Source of the DNA: Tachypleus tridentatus
Lineage: Eukaryota > Arthropoda > Merostomata > Xiphosura > Limulidae
DNA length: 64,000 nucleotides
Direction of reading: 5' to 3'
Assembly: GCF_004210375.1 (NCBI RefSeq)
Contig: NC_134825.1
Span: forward strand, 186,001 to 250,000
Position 1 is the first letter of the stretch. The number at the start of each line of letters is the position of its first letter. The notes beneath the pieces were generated by a model. It saw nothing but the letters and a program-made list of their open reading frames with translations, did not search any database and had not been told where the DNA came from. Position numbers and translations under genes: made by a program. Below, piece by piece: positions 13,665 to 58,601 of this stretch.

Positions 13665-14019
13665 TTGTAATTTTCTTTCTTTTCCCTATTGATGTTTTTT
13701 TAAGACTCTTTCCTCCACCTCCGTTGTTTATTTTACATAGATTCAGTTGAGGTACCAGAACTATAGAGGTTGGATTATAGTTTATAACACCAAATCTAAG
13801 ATTTACAATACAAAGTGTTATTAACATGTTAGTACTAAAACAAATATTGGAGGTTGGGTGAAAAGAATTGACGGTAACACATAGCATCGGATTTCTGAGT
13901 TTATGTCGCCAGGGGTAACTATATTCTGCCTACAAGTTATAGGACAAGAGTAGTATTGGAATATGAAACATTGGGGTTTTACCACTCGTATACTAACCCC
14001 ATTTTGAATATGTAGTGTG
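13665..14019. other. Unannotated stretch
   Basis: Holds a 76-residue minus-strand ORF without recognisable features. Nothing else seen. Confidence 0.5.
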
Positions 14020-14031
14020 CTTTCTACTTTT

Positions 14032-14246
14032 GGCCCGGCATGGCCAGGTGGGTTGAGGCGTTCGACTACCCGTCACACCATACATGCTCGCCTTTTCAGC
14101 CGTGGGAGTGTTATAATGTGACGCCAAATTCCATTGGCGGTGGGTGGCGATGACTAGCTGCCTTCCCTCTAGTCTTACATTGCTAAATTAGGGACGGCTA
14201 GCACAGATAGTCCTTGTGTAGCTTTACGCGAAATTCAAAATAAACC
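14032..14246 (+). mobile_element. tRNA-derived SINE, family 1, internally deleted
   Basis: Head ggcccggcatggccaggtgg, body and tail of family 1, with two internal deletions (part of the tRNA-like head, and the cactattcgttggtaaaag segment). Perfect 12-bp target-site duplication ctttctactttt at 14020-14031 and 14247-14258. Confidence 0.95.
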
Positions 14247-14258
14247 CTTTCTACTTTT

Positions 14259-15499
14259 CCATCTGTTGCTGATACAGCCCCAAACGTTTTCACTTCAAAA
14301 TGACACCACCTTTAGATGAATAATATATTTTACATTGATTTGTTACAGTTGTTGCATACATTTATAATAAATATGTATTCCTTAGACATCAGAAACTTTC
14401 TAAAAAATGTCTTTTATTGGAGTTTGAACATTATTTTATAATCTGTTAATGATAAATTTTATTGGTTAAACATTAAAATAATTACCGATCACATCAAATT
14501 AAAACGATTCGCTATCTAAACCTTCAACATCATATCCGTTCTTTTCAATTGGATATACCCTTTACAAATATAGTAGTCATAAAATCCTCTAGTTTGAAAT
14601 ACAGTGTTCATACCCATCCATATATCTTAGGTATCTGTGTGGTGTCACCACTATTCTTGCGCTTATGTACCCACGGTCTTCAAGTGTAAATGGGCATACA
14701 TCGGCCATATTTCTCTGAAAAAAACAAACAAATTTACAATACATGCGTAATTGAATATAACATAATAATGGATGGGTTGGGACTTACGGGCCACCCTGTA
14801 TAACAATATATTCTAACAGTACTCGTCTAGAGAGATTATATCAAGTTTATACTGTACGTCTCTTCTCAGATGTGGTCTGTACACAGTGGAAAGAGGAAAG
14901 ACATTTCTTCACTCTTATGTCATTAGTTGTTAGATACTGTTACACTGAATTATATGTATGTAAACCAAAAGTAGCCGTCCTCAGTGATGGAAAAGCTTTA
15001 AGTTAATCTACTTCATGTACTTTTAAAAATGTTGTGTTTCACTCAAAGCTCTGAGCCACTTACACCTTCCATCATGTAAAGTAATTATTGAGCTAATCAA
15101 CAATGACGTACCGTTACGTCATATTTTGTGTGTGAAATCAATTTTGGCATCAATGTTACTCGTGCCTATTCTCGCGTCATTTCAAAAGTGAGTGTTGAGC
15201 TTTGCCTGTGTGCGCAGTTTTCAAACGCAGCACAGTAAGCAGCCGCCATAAACGAGACAGACGAACAGACTCTCGGACAAACGCCACGCTCCGTAATGAA
15301 ACCTATATAAAACTAGTGTGTTTCGCGCCATGCTTAATTTCTCGAAATAGGAGAAGTTATAAAATCGAAAATGCATTTATCCAGATTACGGTCTGTTCAT
15401 TACGATGTTAATGAAAGGATGCAAGGGAGAGTGTGAAACCTTATAAGTGTTGTAAGTGTTTGTATAATAAGCCGTAGTCTGGGATCATCTAGCCTAGAG
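14259..15499. other. Unannotated stretch, part CpG-richer
   Basis: No gene recognised. The part 15170-15420 is less AT-rich than its surroundings, contains several CpGs and a TATATAAAA at about 15305, and includes a 69-residue ORF without a family match. It could be a promoter or first-exon region, but nothing in the sequence proves it. Confidence 0.4.
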
Positions 15500-37002: not shown

Positions 37003-37200
37003 TTAAGCTGAGTGAATAGGAATCATTCGTTCTTGTGATCCTTCTAAGGCCGGTAGAGGCGCTTCAACTGTTAGAACGCCATCTTTTGATAAAGATGATT
37101 TAATCATTTCTGGGTTGGTTCCATTTGGCAACAGAAACTCTCTGTTGTACTCTCGATAAACTTGTCGGCACTCAGATTTCTCTTCGTGCTTAGCATGCAC
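37003..37200 (-). CDS. Small heat shock protein, last exon (C-terminal half of alpha-crystallin domain)
   Basis: Encodes residues 129-193 of the sHSP. It opens with VHAKHEEKSECRQVYREYNR, the loop and strands after the intron, then LLPNGTNPEMIKSSLSKDGV (the conserved S-x-DGVL motif of the alpha-crystallin domain). It ends ERMIPIHSA with an I-P-I motif, the C-terminal anchor that docks onto neighbouring subunits in sHSP oligomers. The exon is preceded on the minus strand by a T-rich tract and TATAG, a good splice acceptor. Joining at GTG (Val) is in phase 0 with the upstream exon and gives a continuous domain. The stop TAA is at 37003-37005. The ORF could be read as starting at GTG, but it is an internal codon. 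sHSPs are ATP-independent chaperones that hold unfolding proteins. Confidence 0.95.
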   Translation of the reverse strand: MHAKHEEKSECRQVYREYNREFLLPNGTNPEMIKSSLSKDGVLTVEAPLPALEGSQERMIPIHSA

Positions 37201-37994
37201 CTATAAAAATATAAATAAATAACAAAAAGAAGTTAATTAAACTAGGAAAATAATACGGAGCTAATAAAAAGACACATACATATATACATGAAAAGTACAA
37301 AATATATGTAATTTATATCTAATTTTAAAAAAAACTACAAATAAGATGTTTTATTTTGTAAGTACAGAAAAACTGTATATAAACGTTAAAATATTTTTTC
37401 AGTGCATGATTGCATACATAAGTTTATCAGAAATAATGATCATACTTACTGATTACTTGACAAGAAGAATTTTAACTGAACTTGTAACAACAAACAAATA
37501 TCCTAAAAGTTGAAAATGTATATAGAACTTGCAGTCCTGAATTGTTAAAAAATATTAACCTATGCAATTAAAAATTGATATTATTATTAATTATTGAAAC
37601 ACAACTAATCTTTTATTAAGAAATGCTAATGTTTTGCATTTTCCAAATCCTTCGTTTTTAGCTTCAGCATAGCGGCGTATAGAATGGTTGTAAGTTTTAT
37701 TTTTGTCACGTACAAACTTTTAGCTCGAGGCTTCACTTCTTCATTCATTTCAGATCTAATTACTTCCGCGGCTATTGAGGATTTCCTCTTTTTCAAATAG
37801 AAAAATAACTATAAATATTGATTTCGCTGCATGAAAAGTGCTATACACAAAATATCCATTTGATAAATGTTATTGAGAGGACTTATATATATGTTAGTGT
37901 TACTAATTTATATAACAGTTTAAAAATTGTGATCGTACAGATGACTAAAACGTTACAAAAATAACGTTCTTATTTCAAACCGTTGTAACAACTG
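37201..37994. other. Non-repetitive part of the sHSP intron next to the last exon
   Basis: AT-rich; no further exon is needed or seen, because the two coding exons join without missing residues. No repeat recognised. Confidence 0.6.
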
Positions 37995-38652: not shown

Positions 38653-41600
38653 AAATAAACATCATAATGTCGACATTATGTAGCTTTGTCTTTAACTTCA
38701 AACAATAAACATCATAATGTCGACATTATGTAGTTTTGTCTTTAACTTCAAACAATAAACATCATAATGTCGACATTATGTAGCTTTGTCTTTAACTTCA
38801 AACAATAAACTTCATAATGTCGACATTATGTAGCTTTGTCTTTAACTTCAAACAATAAACATCATAATGTCGACATTATGTAGTTTTGTCTTTAACTTCA
38901 AACAATAAACATCATAATGTCGACATTATGTAGCTTTGTCTTTAACTTCAAACAATAAACATCATAATGTGGACATTATGTAGCTTTGTCTTTAACTTCA
39001 AACAATAAACATCATAATGTGGACATTATGTAGCTTTGTCTTTAACTTCAAACAATAAACATCATAATGTCGACATTATGTACCTTTGTCTTTAACTTCA
39101 AACAATAAACATCATAATGTGGACATTATGTAGTTTTGTCTTTAACTTCAAACAATAAACATCATAATGTGGACATTATGTAGCTTTGTCTTTAACTTCA
39201 AACAATAAACATCATAATGTGGACATTATGTAGCTTTGTCTTTAACTTCAAACAATAGACATCATAATGTCGACATTATGTAGCTTTGTCTTTAACTTCA
39301 AACAATAAACATCATAATGTCGACATTATGTAGTTTTGTCTTTAACTTCAAACAATAAACATCATAATGTGGACATTATGTAGCTTTGTCTTTAACTTCA
39401 AACAATAAACATCATAATGTGGACATTATGTAGCTTTGTCTTTAACTTCAAACAATAAACATCATAATGTCGACATTATGTAGCTTTGTCTTTAACTTCA
39501 AACAATAGACATCATAATGTCGACATTATGTAGCTTTGTCTTTAACTTCAAACAATAGACATCATAATGTCGACATTATGTAGCTTTGTCTTTAACTTCA
39601 AACAATAAACATCATAATGTCGACATTATGTAGTTTTGTCTTTAACTTCAAACAATAAACATCATAATGTCGACATTATGTAGTTTTGTCTTTAACTTCA
39701 AACAATAAACATCATAATGTGGACATTATGTAGCTTTGTCTTTAACTTCAAACAATAAACATCATAATGTGGACATTATGTAGCTTTGTCTTTAACTTCA
39801 AACAATAAACATCATAATGTGGACATTATGTAGCTTTGTCTTTAACTTCAAACAATAAACATCATAATGTCGACATTATGTAGCTTTGTCTTTAACTTCA
39901 AACAATAAACATCATAATGTCGACATTATGTAGCTTTGTCTTTAACTTCAAACAATAAACATCATAATGTGGACATTATGTAGCTTTGTCTTTAACTTCA
40001 AACAACATACATCATAATGTGGACATTATGTAGCTTTGTCTTTAACTTCAAACAATAAACATCATAATGTCGACATTATGTAGCTTTGTCTTTAACTACA
40101 AACAATAAACATCATAATGTCGACATTATGTAGCTTTGTCTTTAACTTCAAACAATAAACATCATAATGTCGACATTATGTAGCTTTGTCTTTAACTTCA
40201 AACAATAGACATCATAATGTGGACATTATGTAGCTTTGTCTTTAACTTCAAACAATAAACATCATAATGTGGACATTATGTAGCTTTGTCTTTAACTTCA
40301 AACAATAAACATCATAATGTCGACATTATGTAGCTTTGTCTTTAACTACAAACAATAAACATCATAATGTCGACATTATGTAGCTTTGTCTTTAACTTCA
40401 AACAATAAACATCATAATGTCGACATTATGTAGCTTTGTCTTTAACTTCAAACAATAAACATCATAATGTCGACATTATGTAGTTTTGTCTTTAACTTCA
40501 AACAATAAACATCATAATGTCGACATTATGTAGCTTTGTCTTTAACTTCAAACAATAAACATCATAATGTCGACATTATGTAGTTTTGTCTTTAACTTCA
40601 AACAATAAACATCATAATGTCGACATTATGTAGCTTTGTCTTTAACTTCAAACAATAAACATCATAATGTGGACATTATGTAGCTTTGTCTTTAACTTCA
40701 AACAATAAACATCATAATGTGGACATTATGTAGCTTTGTCTTTAACTTCAAACAATAAACATCATAATGTCGACATTATGTACCTTTGTCTTTACCTTCA
40801 AACAATAAACATCATAATGTGGACATTATGTAGTTTTGTCTTTAACTTCAAACAATAAACATCATAATGTCGACATTATGTAGCTTTGTCTTTAACTTCA
40901 AACAATAAACATCATAATGTCGACATTATGTAGCTTTGTCTTTAACTTCAAACAATAGACATCATAATGTCGACATTATGTAGCTTTGTCTTTAACTTCA
41001 AACAATAAACATCATAATGTCGACTAATGTATGTAGTTTTGTCTTTAACTTCAAACAATAAACATCATAATGTGGACATTATGTAGCTTTGTCTTTAACT
41101 TCAAACAATAAACATCATAATGTGGACATTATGTAGCTTTGTCTTTAACTTCAAACAATAAACATCATAATGTGGACATTATGTAGCTTTGTCTTTAACT
41201 TCAAACAATAAACATCATAATGTCGACATTATGTAGCTTTGTCTTTAACTTCAAACAACATACATCATAATGTGGACATTATGTAGCTTTGTCTTTAACT
41301 TCAAACAATAAACATCATAATGTCGACATTATGTAGCTTTGTCTTTAACTACAAACAATAAACATCATAATGTCGACATTATGTAGCTTTGTCTTTAACT
41401 TCAAAAAAATAAACATCATAATGTCGACATTATGTAGCTTTGTCTTTAACTTCAAACAATAGACATCATAATGTGGACATTATGTAGCTTTGTCTTTAAC
41501 TTCAAACAATAAACATCATAATGTGGACATTATGTAGCTTTGTCTTTAACTTCAAACAATAAACATCATAATGTCGACATTATGTAGCTTTGTCTTTAAC

Positions 41601-44600
41601 TACAAACAATAAACATCATAATGTCGACATTATGTAGCTTTGTCTTTAACTTCAAACAATAAACATCATAATGTCGACATTATGTAGCTTTGTCTTTAAC
41701 TTCAAACAATAAACATCATAATGTCGACATTATGTAGCTTTGTCTTTAACTTCAAACAATAGACATCATAATGTGGACATTATGTAGCTTTGTCTTTAAC
41801 TTCAAACAATAAACATCATAATGTGGACATTATGTAGCTTTGTCTTTAACTTCAAACAATAAACATCATAATGTCGACATTATGTAGCTTTGTCTTTAAC
41901 TTCAAACAATAAACATCATAATGTCGACATTATGTAGCTTTGTCTTTAACTTCAAACAATAAACATCATAATGTGGACATTATGTAGCTTTGTCTTTAAC
42001 TTCAAACAACATACATCATAATGTGGACATTATGTAGCTTTGTCTTTAACTTCAAACAATAAACATCATAATGTCGACATTATGTAGCTTTGTCTTTAAC
42101 TACAAACAATAAACATCATAATGTCGACATTATGTAGCTTTGTCTTTAACTTCAAACAATAAACATCATAATGTCGACATTATGTAGCTTTGTCTTTAAC
42201 TTCAAACAATAGACATCATAATGTGGACATTATGTAGCTTTGTCTTTAACTTCAAACAATAAACATCATAATGTGGACATTATGTAGCTTTGTCTTTAAC
42301 TTCAAACAATAAACATCATAATGTCGACATTATGTAGCTTTGTCTTTAACTACAAACAATAAACATCATAATGTCGACATTATGTAGCTTTGTCTTTAAC
42401 TTCAAACAATAAACATCATAATGTCGACATTATGTAGCTTTGTCTTTAACTTCAAACAATAAACATCATAATGTCGACATTATGTAGCTTTGTCTTTAAC
42501 TTCAAACAATAGACATCATAATGTCGACATTATGTAGCTTTGTCTTTAACTTCAAACAATAAACATCATAATGTCGACATTATGTAGTTTTGTCTTTAAC
42601 TTCAAACAATAAACATCATAATGTGGACATTATGTAGCTTTGTCTTTAACTTCAAACAATAAACATCATAATGTGGACATTATGTAGCTTTGTCTTTAAC
42701 TTCAAACAATAAACATCATAATGTCGACATTATGTAGCTTTGTCTTTAACTTCAAACAATAGACATCATAATGTCGACATTATGTAGCTTTGTCTTTAAC
42801 TTCAAACAATAAACATCATAATGTCGACATTATGTAGTTTTGTCTTTAACTTCAAACAATAAACATCATAATGTCGACATTATGTAGTTTTGTCTTTAAC
42901 TTCAAACAATAAACATCATAATGTGGACATTATGTAGCTTTGTCTTTAACTTCAAACAATAAACATCATAATGTGGACATTATGTAGCTTTGTCTTTAAC
43001 TTCAAACAATAAACATCATAATGTGGACATTATGTAGCTTTGTCTTTAACTTCAAACAATAAACATCATAATGTCGACATTATGTAGCTTTGTCTTTAAC
43101 TTCAAACAATAAACATCATAATGTCGACATTATGTAGCTTTGTCTTTAACTTCAAACAATAAACATCATAATGTGGACATTATGTAGCTTTGTCTTTAAC
43201 TTCAAACAACATACATCATAATGTGGACATTATGTAGCTTTGTCTTTAACTTCAAACAATAAACATCATAATGTCGACATTATGTAGCTTTGTCTTTAAC
43301 TACAAACAATAAACATCATAATGTCGACATTATGTAGCTTTGTCTTTAACTTCAAACAATAAACATCATAATGTCGACATTATGTAGCTTTGTCTTTAAC
43401 TTCAAACAATAGACATCATAATGTGGACATTATGTAGCTTTGTCTTTAACTTCAAACAATAAACATCATAATGTCGACATTATGTAGCTTTGTCTTTAAC
43501 TTCAAACAATAAACATCATAATGTCGACATTATGTAGCTTTGTCTTTAACTACAAACAATAAACATCATAATGTCGACATTATGTAGCTTTGTCTTTAAC
43601 TTCAAACAATAAACATCATAATGTCGACATTATGTAGCTTTGTCTTTAACTTCAAACAATAAACATCATAATGTCGACATTATGTAGTTTTGTCTTTAAC
43701 TTCAAACAATAAACATCATAATGTCGACATTATGTAGCTTTGTCTTTAACTTCAAACAATAAACATCATAATGTCGACATTATGTAGTTTTGTCTTTAAC
43801 TTCAAACAATAAACATCATAATGTCGACATTATGTAGCTTTGTCTTTAACTTCAAACAATAAACATCATAATGTGGACATTATGTAGCTTTGTCTTTAAC
43901 TTCAAACAATAAACATCATAATGTGGACATTATGTAGCTTTGTCTTTAACTTCAAACAATAAACATCATAATGTCGACATTATGTACCTTTGTCTTTACC
44001 TTCAAACAATAAACATCATAATGTGGACATTATGTAGTTTTGTCTTTAACTTCAAACAATAAACATCATAATGTCGACATTATGTAGCTTTGTCTTTAAC
44101 TTCAAACAATAAACATCATAATGTCGACATTATGTAGCTTTGTCTTTAACTTCAAACAATAGACATCATAATGTCGACATTATGTAGCTTTGTCTTTAAC
44201 TTCAAACAATAAACATCATAATGTCGACATTATGTAGTTTTGTCTTTAACTTCAAACAATAAACATCATAATGTGGACATTATGTAGCTTTGTCTTTAAC
44301 TTCAAACAATAAACATCATAATGTGGACATTATGTAGCTTTGTCTTTAACTTCAAACAATAAACATCATAATGTGGACATTATGTAGCTTTGTCTTTAAC
44401 TTCAAACAATAAACATCATAATGTCGACATTATGTAGCTTTGTCTTTAACTTCAAACAACATACATCATAATGTGGACATTATGTAGCTTTGTCTTTAAC
44501 TTCAAACAATAAACATCATAATGTCGACATTATGTAGCTTTGTCTTTAACTACAAACAATAAACATCATAATGTCGACATTATGTAGCTTTGTCTTTAAC

Positions 44601-47600
44601 TTCAAAAAAATAAACATCATAATGTCGACATTATGTAGCTTTGTCTTTAACTTCAAACAATAGACATCATAATGTGGACATTATGTAGCTTTGTCTTTAA
44701 CTTCAAACAATAAACATCATAATGTGGACATTATGTAGCTTTGTCTTTAACTTCAAACAATAAACATCATAATGTCGACATTATGTAGCTTTGTCTTTAA
44801 CTACAAACAATAAACATCATAATGTCGACATTATGTAGCTTTGTCTTTAACTTCAAACAATAAACATCATAATGTCGACATTATGTAGCTTTGTCTTTAA
44901 CTTCAAACAATAAACATCATAATGTCGACATTATGTAGCTTTGTCTTTAACTTCAAACAATAGACATCATAATGTGGACATTATGTAGCTTTGTCTTTAA
45001 CTTCAAACAATAGACATCATAATGTGGACATTATGTAGCTTTGTCTTTAACTTCAAACAATAAACATCATAATGTGGACATTATGTAGCTTTGTCTTTAA
45101 CTTCAAACAATAAACATCATAATGTCGACATTATGTAGCTTTGTCTTTAACTTCAAACAATAAACATCATAATGTCGACATTATGTAGCTTTGTCTTTAA
45201 CTTCAAACAATAAACATCATAATGTGGACATTATGTAGCTTTGTCTTTAACTTCAAACAACATACATCATAATGTGGACATTATGTAGCTTTGTCTTTAA
45301 CTTCAAACAATAAACATCATAATGTCGACATTATGTAGCTTTGTCTTTAACTACAAACAATAAACATCATAATGTCGACATTATGTAGCTTTGTCTTTAA
45401 CTTCAAACAATAAACATCATAATGTCGACATTATGTAGCTTTGTCTTTAACTTCAAACAATAGACATCATAATGTGGACATTATGTAGCTTTGTCTTTAA
45501 CTTCAAACAATAAACATCATAATGTGGACATTATGTAGCTTTGTCTTTAACTTCAAACAATAAACATCATAATGTCGACATTATGTAGCTTTGTCTTTAA
45601 CTACAAACAATAAACATCATAATGTCGACATTATGTAGCTTTGTCTTTAACTTCAAACAATAAACATCATAATGTCGACATTATGTAGCTTTGTCTTTAA
45701 CTTCAAACAATAAACATCATAATGTCGACATTATGTAGCTTTGTCTTTAACTTCAAACAATAGACATCATAATGTCGACATTATGTAGCTTTGTCTTTAA
45801 CTTCAAACAATAAACATCATAATGTCGACATTATGTAGTTTTGTCTTTAACTTCAAACAATAAACATCATAATGTGGACATTATGTAGCTTTGTCTTTAA
45901 CTTCAAACAATAAACATCATAATGTGGACATTATGTAGCTTTGTCTTTAACTTCAAACAATAAACATCATAATGTCGACATTATGTAGCTTTGTCTTTAA
46001 CTTCAAACAATAGACATCATAATGTCGACATTATGTAGCTTTGTCTTTAACTTCAAACAATAAACATCATAATGTCGACATTATGTAGTTTTGTCTTTAA
46101 CTTCAAACAATAAACATCATAATGTCGACATTATGTAGTTTTGTCTTTAACTTCAAACAATAAACATCATAATGTGGACATTATGTAGCTTTGTCTTTAA
46201 CTTCAAACAATAAACATCATAATGTGGACATTATGTAGCTTTGTCTTTAACTTCAAACAATAAACATCATAATGTGGACATTATGTAGCTTTGTCTTTAA
46301 CTTCAAACAATAAACATCATAATGTCGACATTATGTAGCTTTGTCTTTAACTTCAAACAATAAACATCATAATGTCGACATTATGTAGCTTTGTCTTTAA
46401 CTTCAAACAATAAACATCATAATGTGGACATTATGTAGCTTTGTCTTTAACTTCAAACAACATACATCATAATGTGGACATTATGTAGCTTTGTCTTTAA
46501 CTTCAAACAATAAACATCATAATGTCGACATTATGTAGCTTTGTCTTTAACTACAAACAATAAACATCATAATGTCGACATTATGTAGCTTTGTCTTTAA
46601 CTTCAAACAATAAACATCATAATGTCGACATTATGTAGCTTTGTCTTTAACTTCAAACAATAGACATCATAATGTGGACATTATGTAGCTTTGTCTTTAA
46701 CTTCAAACAATAAACATCATAATGTCGACATTATGTAGCTTTGTCTTTAACTTCAAACAATAAACATCATAATGTCGACATTATGTAGCTTTGTCTTTAA
46801 CTACAAACAATAAACATCATAATGTCGACATTATGTAGCTTTGTCTTTAACTTCAAACAATAAACATCATAATGTCGACATTATGTAGCTTTGTCTTTAA
46901 CTTCAAACAATAAACATCATAATGTCGACATTATGTAGTTTTGTCTTTAACTTCAAACAATAAACATCATAATGTCGACATTATGTAGCTTTGTCTTTAA
47001 CTTCAAACAATAAACATCATAATGTCGACATTATGTAGTTTTGTCTTTAACTTCAAACAATAAACATCATAATGTCGACATTATGTAGCTTTGTCTTTAA
47101 CTTCAAACAATAAACATCATAATGTGGACATTATGTAGCTTTGTCTTTAACTTCAAACAATAAACATCATAATGTGGACATTATGTAGCTTTGTCTTTAA
47201 CTTCAAACAATAAACATCATAATGTCGACATTATGTACCTTTGTCTTTACCTTCAAACAATAAACATCATAATGTGGACATTATGTAGTTTTGTCTTTAA
47301 CTTCAAACAATAAACATCATAATGTCGACATTATGTAGCTTTGTCTTTAACTTCAAACAATAAACATCATAATGTCGACATTATGTAGCTTTGTCTTTAA
47401 CTTCAAACAATAAACATCATAATGTGGACATTATGTAGCTTTGTCTTTAACTTCAAACAATAAACATCATAATGTCGACATTATGTAGCTTTGTCTTTAA
47501 CTACAAACAATAAACATCATAATGTCGACATTATGTAGCTTTGTCTTTAACTTCAAACAATAAACATCATAATGTCGACATTATGTAGCTTTGTCTTTAA

Positions 47601-50600
47601 CTTCAAACAATAAACATCATAATGTCGACATTATGTAGCTTTGTCTTTAACTTCAAACAATAGACATCATAATGTGGACATTATGTAGCTTTGTCTTTAA
47701 CTTCAAACAATAAACATCATAATGTGGACATTATGTAGCTTTGTCTTTAACTTCAAACAATAAACATCATAATGTCGACATTATGTAGCTTTGTCTTTAA
47801 CTTCAAACAATAAACATCATAATGTCGACATTATGTAGCTTTGTCTTTAACTTCAAACAATAAACATCATAATGTGGACATTATGTAGCTTTGTCTTTAA
47901 CTTCAAACAACATACATCATAATGTGGACATTATGTAGCTTTGTCTTTAACTTCAAACAATAAACATCATAATGTCGACATTATGTAGCTTTGTCTTTAA
48001 CTACAAACAATAAACATCATAATGTCGACATTATGTAGCTTTGTCTTTAACTTCAAACAATAAACATCATAATGTCGACATTATGTAGCTTTGTCTTTAA
48101 CTTCAAACAATAGACATCATAATGTGGACATTATGTAGCTTTGTCTTTAACTTCAAACAATAAACATCATAATGTGGACATTATGTAGCTTTGTCTTTAA
48201 CTTCAAACAATAAACATCATAATGTCGACATTATGTAGCTTTGTCTTTAACTACAAACAATAAACATCATAATGTCGACATTATGTAGCTTTGTCTTTAA
48301 CTTCAAACAATAAACATCATAATGTCGACATTATGTAGCTTTGTCTTTAACTTCAAACAATAAACATCATAATGTCGACATTATGTAGTTTTGTCTTTAA
48401 CTTCAAACAATAAACATCATAATGTCGACATTATGTAGCTTTGTCTTTAACTTCAAACAATAAACATCATAATGTGGACATTATGTAGTTTTGTCTTTAA
48501 CTTCAAACAATAAACATCATAATGTGGACATTATGTAGCTTTGTCTTTAACTTCAAACAATAAACATCATAATGTCGACATTATGTAGCTTTGTCTTTAA
48601 CTTCAAACAATAGACATCATAATGTCGACATTATGTAGCTTTGTCTTTAACTTCAAACAATAAACATCATAATGTGGACATTATGTAGCTTTGTCTTTAA
48701 CTTCAAACAATAAACATCATAATGTCGACATTATGTACCTTTGTCTTTACCTTCAAACAATAAACATCATAATGTGGACATTATGTAGTTTTGTCTTTAA
48801 CTTCAAACAATAAACATCATAATGTCGACATTATGTAGCTTTGTCTTTAACTTCAAACAATAAACATCATAATGTCGACATTATGTAGCTTTGTCTTTAA
48901 CTTCAAACAATAAACATCATAATGTGGACATTATGTAGCTTTGTCTTTAACTTCAAACAATAAACATCATAATGTCGACATTATGTAGCTTTGTCTTTAA
49001 CTACAAACAATAAACATCATAATGTCGACATTATGTAGCTTTGTCTTTAACTTCAAACAATAAACATCATAATGTCGACATTATGTAGCTTTGTCTTTAA
49101 CTTCAAACAATAAACATCATAATGTCGACATTATGTAGCTTTGTCTTTAACTTCAAACAATAGACATCATAATGTGGACATTATGTAGCTTTGTCTTTAA
49201 CTTCAAACAATAAACATCATAATGTGGACATTATGTAGCTTTGTCTTTAACTTCAAACAATAAACATCATAATGTCGACATTATGTAGCTTTGTCTTTAA
49301 CTTCAAACAATAAACATCATAATGTCGACATTATGTAGCTTTGTCTTTAACTTCAAACAATAAACATCATAATGTGGACATTATGTAGCTTTGTCTTTAA
49401 CTTCAAACAACATACATCATAATGTGGACATTATGTAGCTTTGTCTTTAACTTCAAACAATAAACATCATAATGTCGACATTATGTAGCTTTGTCTTTAA
49501 CTACAAACAATAAACATCATAATGTCGACATTATGTAGCTTTGTCTTTAACTTCAAACAATAAACATCATAATGTCGACATTATGTAGCTTTGTCTTTAA
49601 CTTCAAACAATAGACATCATAATGTGGACATTATGTAGCTTTGTCTTTAACTTCAAACAATAAACATCATAATGTGGACATTATGTAGCTTTGTCTTTAA
49701 CTTCAAACAATAAACATCATAATGTCGACATTATGTAGCTTTGTCTTTAACTTCAAACAATAAACATCATAATGTCGACATTATGTAGCTTTGTCTTTAA
49801 CTTCAAACAATAAACATCATAATGTCGACATTATGTAGTTTTGTCTTTAACTTCAAACAATAAACATCATAATGTCGACATTATGTAGCTTTGTCTTTAA
49901 CTTCAAACAATAAACATCATAATGTGGACATTATGTAGTTTTGTCTTTAACTTCAAACAATAAACATCATAATGTGGACATTATGTAGCTTTGTCTTTAA
50001 CTTCAAACAATAAACATCATAATGTCGACATTATGTAGCTTTGTCTTTAACTTCAAACAATAGACATCATAATGTGGACATTATGTAGCTTTGTCTTTAA
50101 CTTCAAACAATAAACATCATAATGTGGACATTATGTAGCTTTGTCTTTAACTTCAAACAATAAACATCATAATGTCGACATTATGTAGCTTTGTCTTTAA
50201 CTTCAAACAATAAACATCATAATGTCGACATTATGTAGCTTTGTCTTTAACTTCAAACAATAAACATCATAATGTCGACATTATGTAGCTTTGTCTTTAA
50301 CTTCAAACAATAGACATCATAATGTGGACATTATGTAGCTTTGTCTTTAACTTCAAACAATAAACATCATAATGTGGACATTATGTAGCTTTGTCTTTAA
50401 CTACAAACAATAAACATCATAATGTCGACATTATGTAGCTTTGTCTTTAACTTCAAACAATAAACATCATAATGTCGACATTATGTAGCTTTGTCTTTAA
50501 CTTCAAACAATAAACATCATAATGTCGACATTATGTAGTTTTGTCTTTAACTTCAAACAATAAACATCATAATGTCGACATTATGTAGCTTTGTCTTTAA

Positions 50601-51820
50601 CTTCAAACAATAAACATCATAATGTGGACATTATGTAGTTTTGTCTTTAACTTCAAACAATAAACATCATAATGTGGACATTATGTAGCTTTGTCTTTAA
50701 CTTCAAACAATAAACATCATAATGTCGACATTATGTAGCTTTGTCTTTAACTTCAAACAATAGACATCATAATGTCGACATTATGTAGCTTTGTCTTTAA
50801 CTTCAAACAATAAACATCATAATGTCGACATTATGTAGTTTTGTCTTTAACTTCAAACAATAAACATCATAATGTGGACATTATGTAGCTTTGTCTTTAA
50901 CTTCAAACAATAAACATCATAATGTGGACATTATGTAGCTTTGTCTTTAACTTCAAACAATAAACATCATAATGTGGACATTATGTAGCTTTGTCTTTAA
51001 CTTCAAACAATAAACATCATAATGTCGACATTATGTAGCTTTGTCTTTAACTTCAAACAATAAACATCATAATGTCGACATTATGTAGCTTTGTCTTTAA
51101 CTTCAAACAATAAACATCATAATGTGGACATTATGTAGCTTTGTCTTTAACTTCAAACAACATACATCATAATGTGGACATTATGTAGCTTTGTCTTTAA
51201 CTTCAAACAATAAACATCATAATGTCGACATTATGTAGCTTTGTCTTTAACTACAAACAATAAACATCATAATGTCGACATTATGTAGCTTTGTCTTTAA
51301 CTTCAAACAATAAACATCATAATGTCGACATTATGTAGCTTTGTCTTTAACTTCAAACAATAGACATCATAATGTGGACATTATGTAGCTTTGTCTTTAA
51401 CTTCAAACAATAAACATCATAATGTGGACATTATGTAGCTTTGTCTTTAACTTCAAACAATAAACATCATAATGTCGACATTATGTAGCTTTGTCTTTAA
51501 CTACAAACAATAAACATCATAATGTCGACATTATGTAGCTTTGTCTTTAACTTCAAACAATAAACATCATAATGTCGACATTATGTAGCTTTGTCTTTAA
51601 CTTCAAACAATAAACATCATAATGTCGACATTATGTAGCTTTGTCTTTAACTTCAAACAATAGACATCATAATGTGGACATTATGTAGCTTTGTCTTTAA
51701 CTTCAAACAATAAACATCATAATGTCGACATTATGTAGCTTTGTCTTTAACTACAAACAATAAACATCATAATGTCGACATTATGTAGCTTTGTCTTTAA
51801 CTTCAAACAATAAACATCAT
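38653..51820. repeat. 50-bp satellite, ~263 copies, with 18-bp palindrome
   Basis: The unit is 50 bp: aataaacat, the palindrome CATAATGTCGACATTATG, then tagctttgtctttaacttca. About 13.2 kb with almost no length change; indels are seen only at about 41025 (3 extra bases), 41404 and 44605 (A-run). Variable sites: C or G in the palindrome centre (G breaks perfect symmetry), tagC/Tttt, ttca/taca, aataaac/aatagac/acatac, and a rare tacctttgtctttacc form. These mark higher-order repeats of about 3.2 kb and 1.5 kb. All six frames contain stops. It lies wholly within the sHSP intron. Confidence 0.98.
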
Positions 51821-52006
51821 ACTTATTTTCACGTGAAGTAAAACTAACCTGAGTTAACAATAGTAATTTTTAGAGTAACAAAAATACTGTTGTTGCAAAA
51901 CGTCGATCACAAAGTTTCACGCTCACTATTCGTTTTTTGAAGCTGTTTTGTAAACATTATAATTTTTTTAAAGAAACAAAATAGGAAGGATCATTGCCCG
52001 AGAACA

Positions 52007-56994: not shown

Positions 56995-57100
56995 ATTAGC
57001 TCAGCAGTTAGTTTGGAGGTTCATAACACTAAAAACTTGGTTTATATATTCTTAGTGAGCAAACACAGATACCCTATTGTGTAGCTTAACAAGAAATATA
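56995..57100 (+). mobile_element. tRNA-derived SINE, family 3, old copy
   Basis: attagctcagcagttagttt, cataacactaaaaacttgg, gcaaacacagataccctatt and gtgtagctt follow the family order. Strongly mutated. Confidence 0.55.
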
Positions 57101-57599
57101 AACACAAACTAAAGATAATATAACAGAATTGTAATCTATAATTTATCTGAAAATTATAAGCGAAATATGAAGACGGGTGAGGTCCTTATCGATATGTGAT
57201 CACATGTTTCATAAGTAAGATATACTTTATTACTTCTTCAACGTTACTTTCATTCGAAGTAGTGGTTACAATGATTAGTATATGTACTTTTATTATTCTC
57301 CATTTTAATACATTTTCGATGGTTATATTTATGGATCGACATATGGATTTCGGGTTAACATAAAGCTCATAAGCTAGCCGAAACTCACCAGTTATTATTG
57401 TATTTACGGCCGAAAAGATCGATAACAATGCATTCTAACCTTATACATAAACAAAAATACATGAAAAGTATATTTCATTAGCTATACTTATGACGTAGGT
57501 TATTTTTGGTTTTGGTCTAAGTAAGAAGGGTTCTCTTATCGGAAACTAATATAATTAAGTGATGTTTGGCTGTTTTTCACAACCTGCTGGTGCTATTCT
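57101..57599. other. Unannotated intron stretch
   Basis: Holds an 80-residue minus-strand ORF without recognisable features; nothing else seen. Confidence 0.5.
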
Positions 57600-58082
57600 A
57601 GCAGCTTACCTGAAGACGGTTGTCCACAGTCTTCACCACGATTTCCTCAGGGCTGTACTCAGATACGTCAAACCTTTAGCAGCTTACCTGAAGACGGTTG
57701 TCCACAGTCTTCACCAGATTTCCTCAGGGCTGTACTCAGATACGTCAAACCTTTAGCAGCTTACCTGAAGGCGGTTTTCCATAGTCTTCACCACTTCACC
57801 ACGATTTCCTCAGGGCTGTACTCAGATACGTCAAACCTTTAGCAGCTTACCTGAAGGCGGTTGTCCACAGTCTTCACCACGATTTCCTTAGGGCTGTACT
57901 CAGATACGTCAAACCTTTAGCAGCTTACCTGAAGGCGGTTTTCCACAGTCTTCACCACTTCACCACGATTTCCTCAGGGCTGTACTCAGATACGTCAAAC
58001 CTTTAGCAGCTTACCTGAAGGCGGTTGTCCACAGTCTTCACCACGATTTCCTTAGGGCTGTACTCAGATACGTCAAACCTTT
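57600..58082 (-). repeat. Tandem array of the sHSP exon end plus its splice donor, six copies
   Basis: Units start at 57600, 57678, 57755, 57841, 57919 and 58005 (78, 77, 86, 78, 86, 78 bp). The seventh, genuine copy begins at 58083. Each unit, on the minus strand, repeats about 66 bases of exon (TTTGACGTATCTGAGTAC to CGCCTTCAG, 22 codons from FDV to RLQ) plus the first 12 intron bases (GTAAGCTGCTAA). All six keep CTTCAG|GTAAGC. The 86-bp units contain an 8-bp ttcaccac duplication and alternate with 78-bp units, giving a 164-bp dimer. Copies encode EYSP where the true exon has EYNP. Confidence 0.96.
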
Positions 58083-58092
58083 AGCAGCTTAC

Positions 58093-58476
58093 CTGAAGGC
58101 GGTTGTCCACAGTCTTCACCACGATTTCTTCAGGGTTGTACTCAGATACGTCAAACCGTAACTTTAATTCCTTTCCAGCTTCGCCTTCTTGAATAAGAGG
58201 AGACTTGAGCCCGTCCAACCAGGTTCGCAGTTCAGACTTATGCGTGGTGCCCTCGTTAGATGACGTTGATGTATGCGTGGTGCTAGTGCGTTGAGTTTGG
58301 CTGGTGCTGGTAAAAGAATCACGTTCACGGTCCAGTAGCTGTGACCGGAACTTGTTCATCTCTTCTTCCATCCGTTTCATCTCGGCATCGAAACGTTCTC
58401 GGACGGAGCTAAATTCCTGGTCGATGATGTGGGAGTCCGTTTTAAGGATGGGAAGCTTTCTTTCTGAGCTGGTCAT
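58093..58476 (-). CDS. Small heat shock protein, first coding exon
   Basis: Encodes residues 1-128 of a 193-residue sHSP. ATG at 58476; the codon just before it in frame is TAG. Residues 20-55 (from EFSSVRERFDAEMKRMEEEM) are highly charged and predicted helical or coiled-coil. Residues 56-80 form a Ser/Thr-rich linker (TSTSQTQRTSTTHTSTSS). SELRTWLDGLKSP leads into the alpha-crystallin domain, which starts at about 102 (KELKLRFDVSEYNPEEIVVK) and is cut after DNRLQ by the donor CAG|GTAAGC. The downstream exon completes the domain. The long charged N-terminus recalls invertebrate l(2)efl/HSP-25-type sHSPs; this is from memory. Reading past the donor would add only VSC and a stop. An AG directly before ATG could also be an acceptor of a 5' UTR intron. 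Confidence 0.95.
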
Positions 58477-58593
58477 CTATGGAATGAAGAAAACTGTGCA
58501 TAAACTAAGTTTTTACTGTAAAACATAATACTGACGGACAAAGACACCTAATATACGTAAACGTGTGAAAAACTTCCAAACCTAAACCAGTTG

Positions 58594-58601
58594 TTTATAT
58601 A
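58594..58601 (-). promoter_or_regulatory. Candidate TATA box of the sHSP gene
   Basis: TATATAAA on the minus strand, about 120 bases before the start codon, would place transcription start near 58565. About 35 bases further upstream (58632-58653) lies an imperfect heat-shock-element-like cluster, agaaattctagagaatc. Its GAA and TTC blocks are mis-spaced relative to the nGAAnnTTCn rule, so heat inducibility is only a suggestion. Confidence 0.35.

Follow-up and report, generated by a model that had tools for sequence, protein, structure and literature searches.

The sHSP gene and the array at the end of exon 1

The window, meaning the whole stretch of 64,000 nucleotides that was analysed (Tachypleus tridentatus, contig NC_134825.1, positions 186,001 to 250,000 of the forward strand), carries a two-exon sHSP gene on its minus strand. 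Exon 1 runs from the ATG at 58476 to 58093 (384 nt, phase 0), and the first intron base at the genuine donor is 58092. Exon 2 starts at 37200 and is preceded by ATTTTTATAG; position 37201, which an earlier note on this DNA had given as the acceptor, is the last intron base. The spliced product has 193 residues, and its HSP20/alpha-crystallin domain (residues 101-191, PF00011, E=1.8e-18) spans both exons. The best solved relative is alpha-crystallin B (E=4.2e-15).

Directly downstream of the genuine donor, the end of exon 1 together with the start of the intron is present in six extra copies, called decoys here, and every one of them contains CAG|GTAAGC. The features of the gene and of the array are as follows.

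58093-58476, minus strand: coding portion of exon 1 of the sHSP gene (128 codons), with CTTCAG at its 3' end
58080-58157, minus strand: genuine unit, with the last 65 exon bases, donor 58092 and 13 intron-side bases
58081-58083, minus strand: in-frame TAA after VSC, reached with any downstream donor or with intron retention
58002-58079, minus strand: decoy 1, donor 58014
57916-58001, minus strand: decoy 2, 86 bp with an 8-bp internal duplication, donor 57928
57838-57915, minus strand: decoy 3, donor 57850
57752-57837, minus strand: decoy 4, 86 bp, donor 57764
57675-57751, minus strand: decoy 5, 77 bp with a 1-bp deletion, donor 57687
57599-57674, minus strand: decoy 6, donor 57609, then unrepeated intron
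37201-58092, minus strand: intron 1, 20.9 kb, containing a 13-kb minisatellite of 50-bp units
37003-37200, minus strand: sHSP exon 2 coding part including the stop, with the same sequence in the second gene copy

From the genuine donor onward the donors are spaced by 78, 86, 78, 86, 77 and 78 bases. The unit consists of 65 exon bases and 13 intron-side bases, 11 of the 13 being equal to the true intron start; the tandem exon-end unit had thus been recognised correctly before, with its boundary one base off (66+12). Each of the 86-bp units contains an 8-bp internal duplication. The units were found via CAGGTAAGC itself, and inspection of the plain sequence gave no unit without CAGGTAAGC, hence a count of seven of seven. 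A chance origin of the array can be excluded because TRF detects it independently, at 57631-58157 (period 164, 95% matches) and at 57794-58157 (period 78, 91% matches). With head-to-tail units in the range of 10-100 bp (TRF periods 78 and 164), the array is a minisatellite whose repeated unit takes in the genuine donor. Both the six further donor copies behind the genuine one and their tandem origin from the exon end with identical donors, as described in the earlier note, are confirmed.

Any downstream donor is predicted to give the same read-through from the genuine exon, RLQ-VSC-stop, as had been proposed. The resulting product of 131 residues has no Pfam HSP20 match, in contrast to the full 193 residues, in agreement with the suggested truncation of the alpha-crystallin domain. 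The pairing energy with U1 was -11.0 kcal/mol for the array donors, compared with -10.7 for the related genes on contigs C7 and C12, -7.8 for the one on C3 and -11.8 for a perfect site; every decoy is therefore a strong donor.

Most of the sHSP intron is occupied by the 50-bp minisatellite (window 38654-51821, 13 kb, 263 copies, 97% matches). It is much shorter or missing in the second gene copy, the whole intron of which measures 8.9 kb.

A second gene copy carries a different array

At 4.432 Mb on C1, the contig that carries the window, the gene is found a second time, inverted and nearly identical. Here the genuine unit is followed by five decoys, with donor spacings of 78, 78, 86, 78 and 78 and a decoy order that differs from that in the window gene, and the intron has a length of 8.9 kb versus 20.9 kb. 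CAG|GTAAGC is kept in all 13 units of the two gene copies. In the coding sequence of 582 nt the copies differ by two synonymous changes, both in exon 1, and exon 2 has none. With one misplaced repeat row (27/270) dropped, the flanks are 0.64% divergent, at 97 of the 15,182 sites that align outside tandem repeats; including this row, the value is 0.80% (124 of 15,452). Because the second copy has five decoys in another order and flanks that are 0.64% apart, it is concluded that the array is genuine and variable in length. Growth of the array as a 164-bp dimer, which had been proposed earlier, agrees with the two 78/86 pairs in the window gene but not with the second copy, which has a single 86-bp unit.

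Tandem repeats are error-prone in assemblies, and probes taken close to the beginning of C1 have further copies at about 99% or more, a part of which could be haplotypes that were not merged. An assembly artefact is nevertheless hardly credible as the source of the array, as two separately placed copies have different but related arrays and similar arrays are found at other exons (see below).

The two near-identical copies, with six and five decoys, may be alleles or paralogues. They could be haplotypes, since a heterozygosity of 0.8% was published for the mangrove horseshoe crab (PMC7210998). Real duplications also fit: probes at C1:60 kb, at C1:1.2 Mb and in window 13700-14900, all three in the initial part of C1, identified further copies at about 99% or more whose centres differed, and one stretch was present in three copies. 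A single palindrome as the source of the second copy was rejected, because the near-identical probe copies have different centres, and a simple haplotype duplication does not fit either, with one stretch in three copies and differing centres. Over the first part of C1 (0-5 Mb), near-identical segments were seen in both orientations, either as unmerged haplotypes or as real duplications.

Repeat content around the gene

Tandem repeats with a period of at least 10 cover 47% of the window; at L006, L011 and L012, which are neighbouring or copy loci, the values are 64%, 55% and 80%. At loci around three related genes (L008, L009, L010, L037 and L038) the cover is 0 to 13%. Ten probes placed 200 kb from contig starts had a mean of 34% tandem repeats, with none in four of them, and ten interior probes had a mean of 12%, with none in eight; this is suggestive of contig starts being richer in repeats than the interior, although with few probes the contrast is weak. 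Minisatellites abound in this stretch close to the beginning of C1, and the array is one of them.

Related genes and the direction of change

Whole-genome duplications have been reported for horseshoe crabs (PMC7815833), and three genes related to the C1 gene, on C3, C7 and C12, perhaps derive from them. The exon boundary is common to all, and the three related genes have two exons, intact frames and one copy of the exon end each; an array at this place was found in none of the three. Nine HSP20 matches on C8 (69.7-70.4 Mb; L013-L016 and L018-L022) have the whole domain in a single open frame, unlike the two-exon family on C1, C3, C7 and C12.

The earlier note had pointed to a codon difference between the copies (EYSP) and the true exon (EYNP), which holds for all 11 decoys and both genuine exons of the two gene copies. 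The N of EYNP is present in both C1 exons; at this position the decoys have S in 11 of 11 cases, and the related genes A (C3 and C7) or S (C12). The first E codon is GAG in the related genes, GAG (7/11) or AAG (4/11) in the decoys, and GAA in both C1 exons. Judged from the three related genes, the simplest reading of the sequences is that the exon, and not the array, changed at both fixed differences after the array had formed. Of the two explanations previously offered, a change in the exon after duplication or homogenisation of the array, the codons of the related genes thus lean towards the first. The change from GAG to GAA in the exon is synonymous and creates GAAGAA. This purine motif is a known splicing enhancer, so the exon changes may be compensatory, a point against a purely neutral array.

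Values of dN between the C1 gene and the three related genes were 0.085-0.122, and 0.093-0.112 among the related genes. The dN/dS ratios of 0.05-0.11 between the C1 gene and its relatives were somewhat above those among the relatives (0.042-0.046); dS is near saturation, and these values average over a time far longer than the life of the array. As judged from its coding sequence, the C1 sHSP gene itself is conserved.

Arrays of the same kind at other exons

The whole genome (2.17 Gb, 205 contigs) was searched with a pattern of three CAGGTRAG octamers spaced 68-98 bases, which covers a single donor consensus and part of the possible spacings. This resulted in 1,660 + 2,160 = 3,820 matches, versus 967 + 1,268 = 2,235 for the reversed pattern, where matches inside one array are not independent. 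In view of the high reversed control, much of the signal is general repeat content. Among the matches listed, all were on C1 and formed 21 groups, with the sHSP pair making up two of them (matches near 113.60 Mb were taken as one group). Of the 19 other groups among the matches listed, three are located at coding exon ends that are proven, one at a likely coding exon end and 13 are without exon evidence, and for the remaining two, near C1:113.60 and 113.65 Mb, the examined flanks lie inside the array. In the 13 groups, the open frame was taken at whichever consensus donor came first; in several of them (for example L070, L086, L087, L088 and L090) this donor is located inside the array, so that an exon origin is possible there.

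The first proven case (C1:2304697, in C1:2303600-2310900; L071/L091/L097) is an exon that encodes part of the alpha-1 subunit of an L-type calcium channel (Cav1), with a phmmer E-value of 9.5e-17 to alpha-1D. The exon end, LWTFIKSIQ|GTGAGT, in the domain IV S4 region, is amplified with a basic unit of 43 bp, giving 14 consensus donors in the 1.3 kb examined. The next calcium channel exon is in place about 1.45 kb into the following stretch, with an AG acceptor before it. In the second case (C1:167161525, in C1:167160400-167162800; L077/L094), the exon EPLVAN...RFYQ|GTGAGA has an acceptor-like AG upstream and matches VWFA and cache domain-containing protein 1 (CACHD1-like, E=6.4e-12); its array has a 90-bp unit and 14 donors, and the first repeats are in frame without a stop. 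The third case (C1:113955801, in C1:113954700-113956500; L074/L092) is an open frame ending in LLLYQ|GTAAGA, with an 83-bp unit and six donors. The peptide gave no Pfam match, and a relative on C13, 59% identical, shares the exon end and has no array. The likely coding exon end (C1:75556276, in C1:75555900-75557500; L079/L093) is an open frame with an acceptor-like site and five donors, the peptide of which gave no PDB or Pfam match.

Three of the arrays, L070 (C1:1081003), L073 (C1:113950665) and L076 (C1:141885128), have units that read as an acceptor joined directly to a donor, e.g., TTCTTGACAG|GTAAGT. No long open frame is present at their first consensus donor, and they are possibly recursive-site-like repeats.

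Consequences for splicing

Normal sHSP mRNA would be formed either with the genuine donor, which is the first in the row, or with a later donor and subsequent removal of the retained units. In transcripts from a downstream donor, the stop after VSC would precede the exon junction by 66 nt for decoy 1 and by as much as 471 nt for decoy 6. Such transcripts would likely be open to nonsense-mediated decay, so that the array would at most lower the output of the gene. The array could be tolerated if the first donor is used, or if AG|GT units are excised in register. The latter is possible in principle, because a tandem duplication across AG|GT keeps all GTs and all CAGs in one register, and this register is present at 7/7 donors in the window gene and at 6/6 in the second copy.

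Such an array might erase itself from the message: a downstream donor is used, and internal excision from GT to CAG then restores the normal message with the frame kept, either as an iterated tandem-duplication intron or by recursive splicing at a distal exon site. A model for intron gain by tandem AGGT duplication, with a fission yeast intron across four AGGT repeats (PMC4974935), and the recursive splicing reported at distal exon ends (PMC10156609) provide precedents, and in the Cav1 unit the pyrimidine fraction before the internal CAG is 0.71, at the low end of true acceptors. The sHSP units, however, are pyrimidine-poor before the CAG (0.53-0.59, compared with 0.71-0.82 in the four true acceptors compared) and have other AGs close by, and the remaining exon-end arrays reach only 0.65, 0.47 and 0.47. 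Self-removal of the sHSP array is therefore judged unlikely. A TACAG acceptor in each decoy, at the EYSP codon, was also considered and rejected, with an implied mini-intron of 35 nt and a pyrimidine fraction of 0.53.

Of comparable donors, the intron-proximal one tends to be favoured (PMC6002489); in DOK7 the favoured proximal donor is also the stronger site (PMC5585400). This preference predicts heavy mis-splicing of the sHSP gene and counts against an array that does little harm. Most transcripts of the C1 gene could then be mis-spliced, and the gene would persist only through cover by related genes, of which three intact two-exon relatives and the nine single-frame HSP20 matches on C8 are present. 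A failing gene is improbable, however, as the open reading frame, the splice sites and the protein identity are intact in both copies, and as the L-type calcium channel gene, for which the proximal-donor rule likewise predicts harm, has such an array and yet keeps its next exon.

The earlier note had also raised the option of a tunable splice buffer. In this reading the decoys would divert a share of the transcripts to decay and the copy number would set the sHSP output, perhaps with stress. The stop after VSC for each downstream donor, the U1 pairing of the array donors, which is as good as or better than that of the related genes, and the variable copy number are in line with this. Comparison of the 11 decoys showed that five of the 76 core columns and none of the nine donor columns are variable, which is expected by chance with P=0.52 at low power, and there is thus no sign in the sequences of donors being specially kept. 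No HSE-like motif was found in the 1.5 kb upstream of either gene copy, and heat regulation was rejected on this basis. A search of 57000-58600 for structured RNA gave no Rfam match at the gathering score. As, moreover, the three related genes are without an array and arrays of like kind are located at unrelated genes, the splice buffer is not upheld and is considered very improbable.

Origin of the array and comparison with known systems

The array is most probably a minisatellite (VNTR) that arose when a segment across the donor of exon 1 and intron 1 was duplicated in tandem, and that then changed in length, like the neighbouring minisatellites. After the initial duplication, unequal exchange or slippage would have lengthened and shortened the array. 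The anatomy, the difference in copy number, the absence from three related genes, the derived state of the codons in the exon and not in the array, the repeat-rich setting and the recurrence at other coding exons were observed directly; from these we infer the route of growth and the absence of a selected function. Because the same accident is found at a few other exons of the genome, the array probably arose as a side effect of DNA that is rich in repeats; a neutral by-product, the other option raised earlier, is the better fit. Coding exon ends can hence seed minisatellites, and the reading frame is not destroyed.

A minisatellite with multiple splice donors in IFI6/G1P3 was reportedly described by Turri in 1995. 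In this gene, two downstream repeat units act as alternative donors of one exon and are said to yield different protein isoforms (PMC4526556), whereas the sHSP decoys would yield a stop. The VNTR in intron 18 of human ABCA7 likewise begins with the GT of the genuine donor and varies in length; retention of one unit via the donor one unit downstream, with a frameshift, was seen in mRNA (PMC5954066). The ABCA7 unit has 25 bp, starts with the intron and occurs in 12 to about 427 units, in contrast to the 78-bp sHSP unit with 65 coding bases and five or six decoys. The Rogers model of intron gain by AGGT tandem duplication, which includes a multi-copy case in fission yeast (PMC4974935), gives register-perfect splice pairs as found here, but it makes a new intron, whereas the sHSP array starts at an existing exon-intron junction and needs none. 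Distal exonic recursive splice sites use the AG|GT at an exon end as acceptor and donor (PMC10156609); the sites described are not in tandem, and those in the sHSP array are putative. For earthworm metallothionein, duplications of exon 4 and intronic minisatellite repeats are described, the exon copies being absent from the final transcript; there are two duplications, one of them inverted, and the account gives no donor array (PMC12783039).

In a literature search of partial coverage, which is no proof of absence, no description of a donor array in a horseshoe crab was found, and the main texts of two horseshoe crab genome papers mention minisatellite, tandem repeat and heat shock zero times. 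Repeats that carry donors are known already from ABCA7 and IFI6; new are the large, mostly coding unit and the several independent cases in one genome. The choice among equal donors has been studied mostly with two sites. Natural genes, including that of an L-type calcium channel, carry between 6 and 14 consecutive consensus donors (seven in the sHSP gene), and these arrays offer a natural test of how the cell chooses among identical splice sites. A tentative and rather doubtful extension is that amplification of exon ends forms a recurrent class in this genome, tolerated at many coding exons because the spliceosome removes AG|GT units piecemeal and the arrays are splice-silent whichever donor is used first. 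If true, this would contradict the expected success of the intron-proximal donor at the cost of the gene.

The genome carries coagulin genes (PF02035, best E=1.5e-25), and coagulogen is the clotting protein of horseshoe crabs. These genes mark the source as a horseshoe crab, most likely Tachypleus tridentatus or a close species: two coagulogen exon peptides match the solved Tachypleus tridentatus coagulogen 1aoc without a difference, one at 41 of 41 and the other at 48 of 48 residues.
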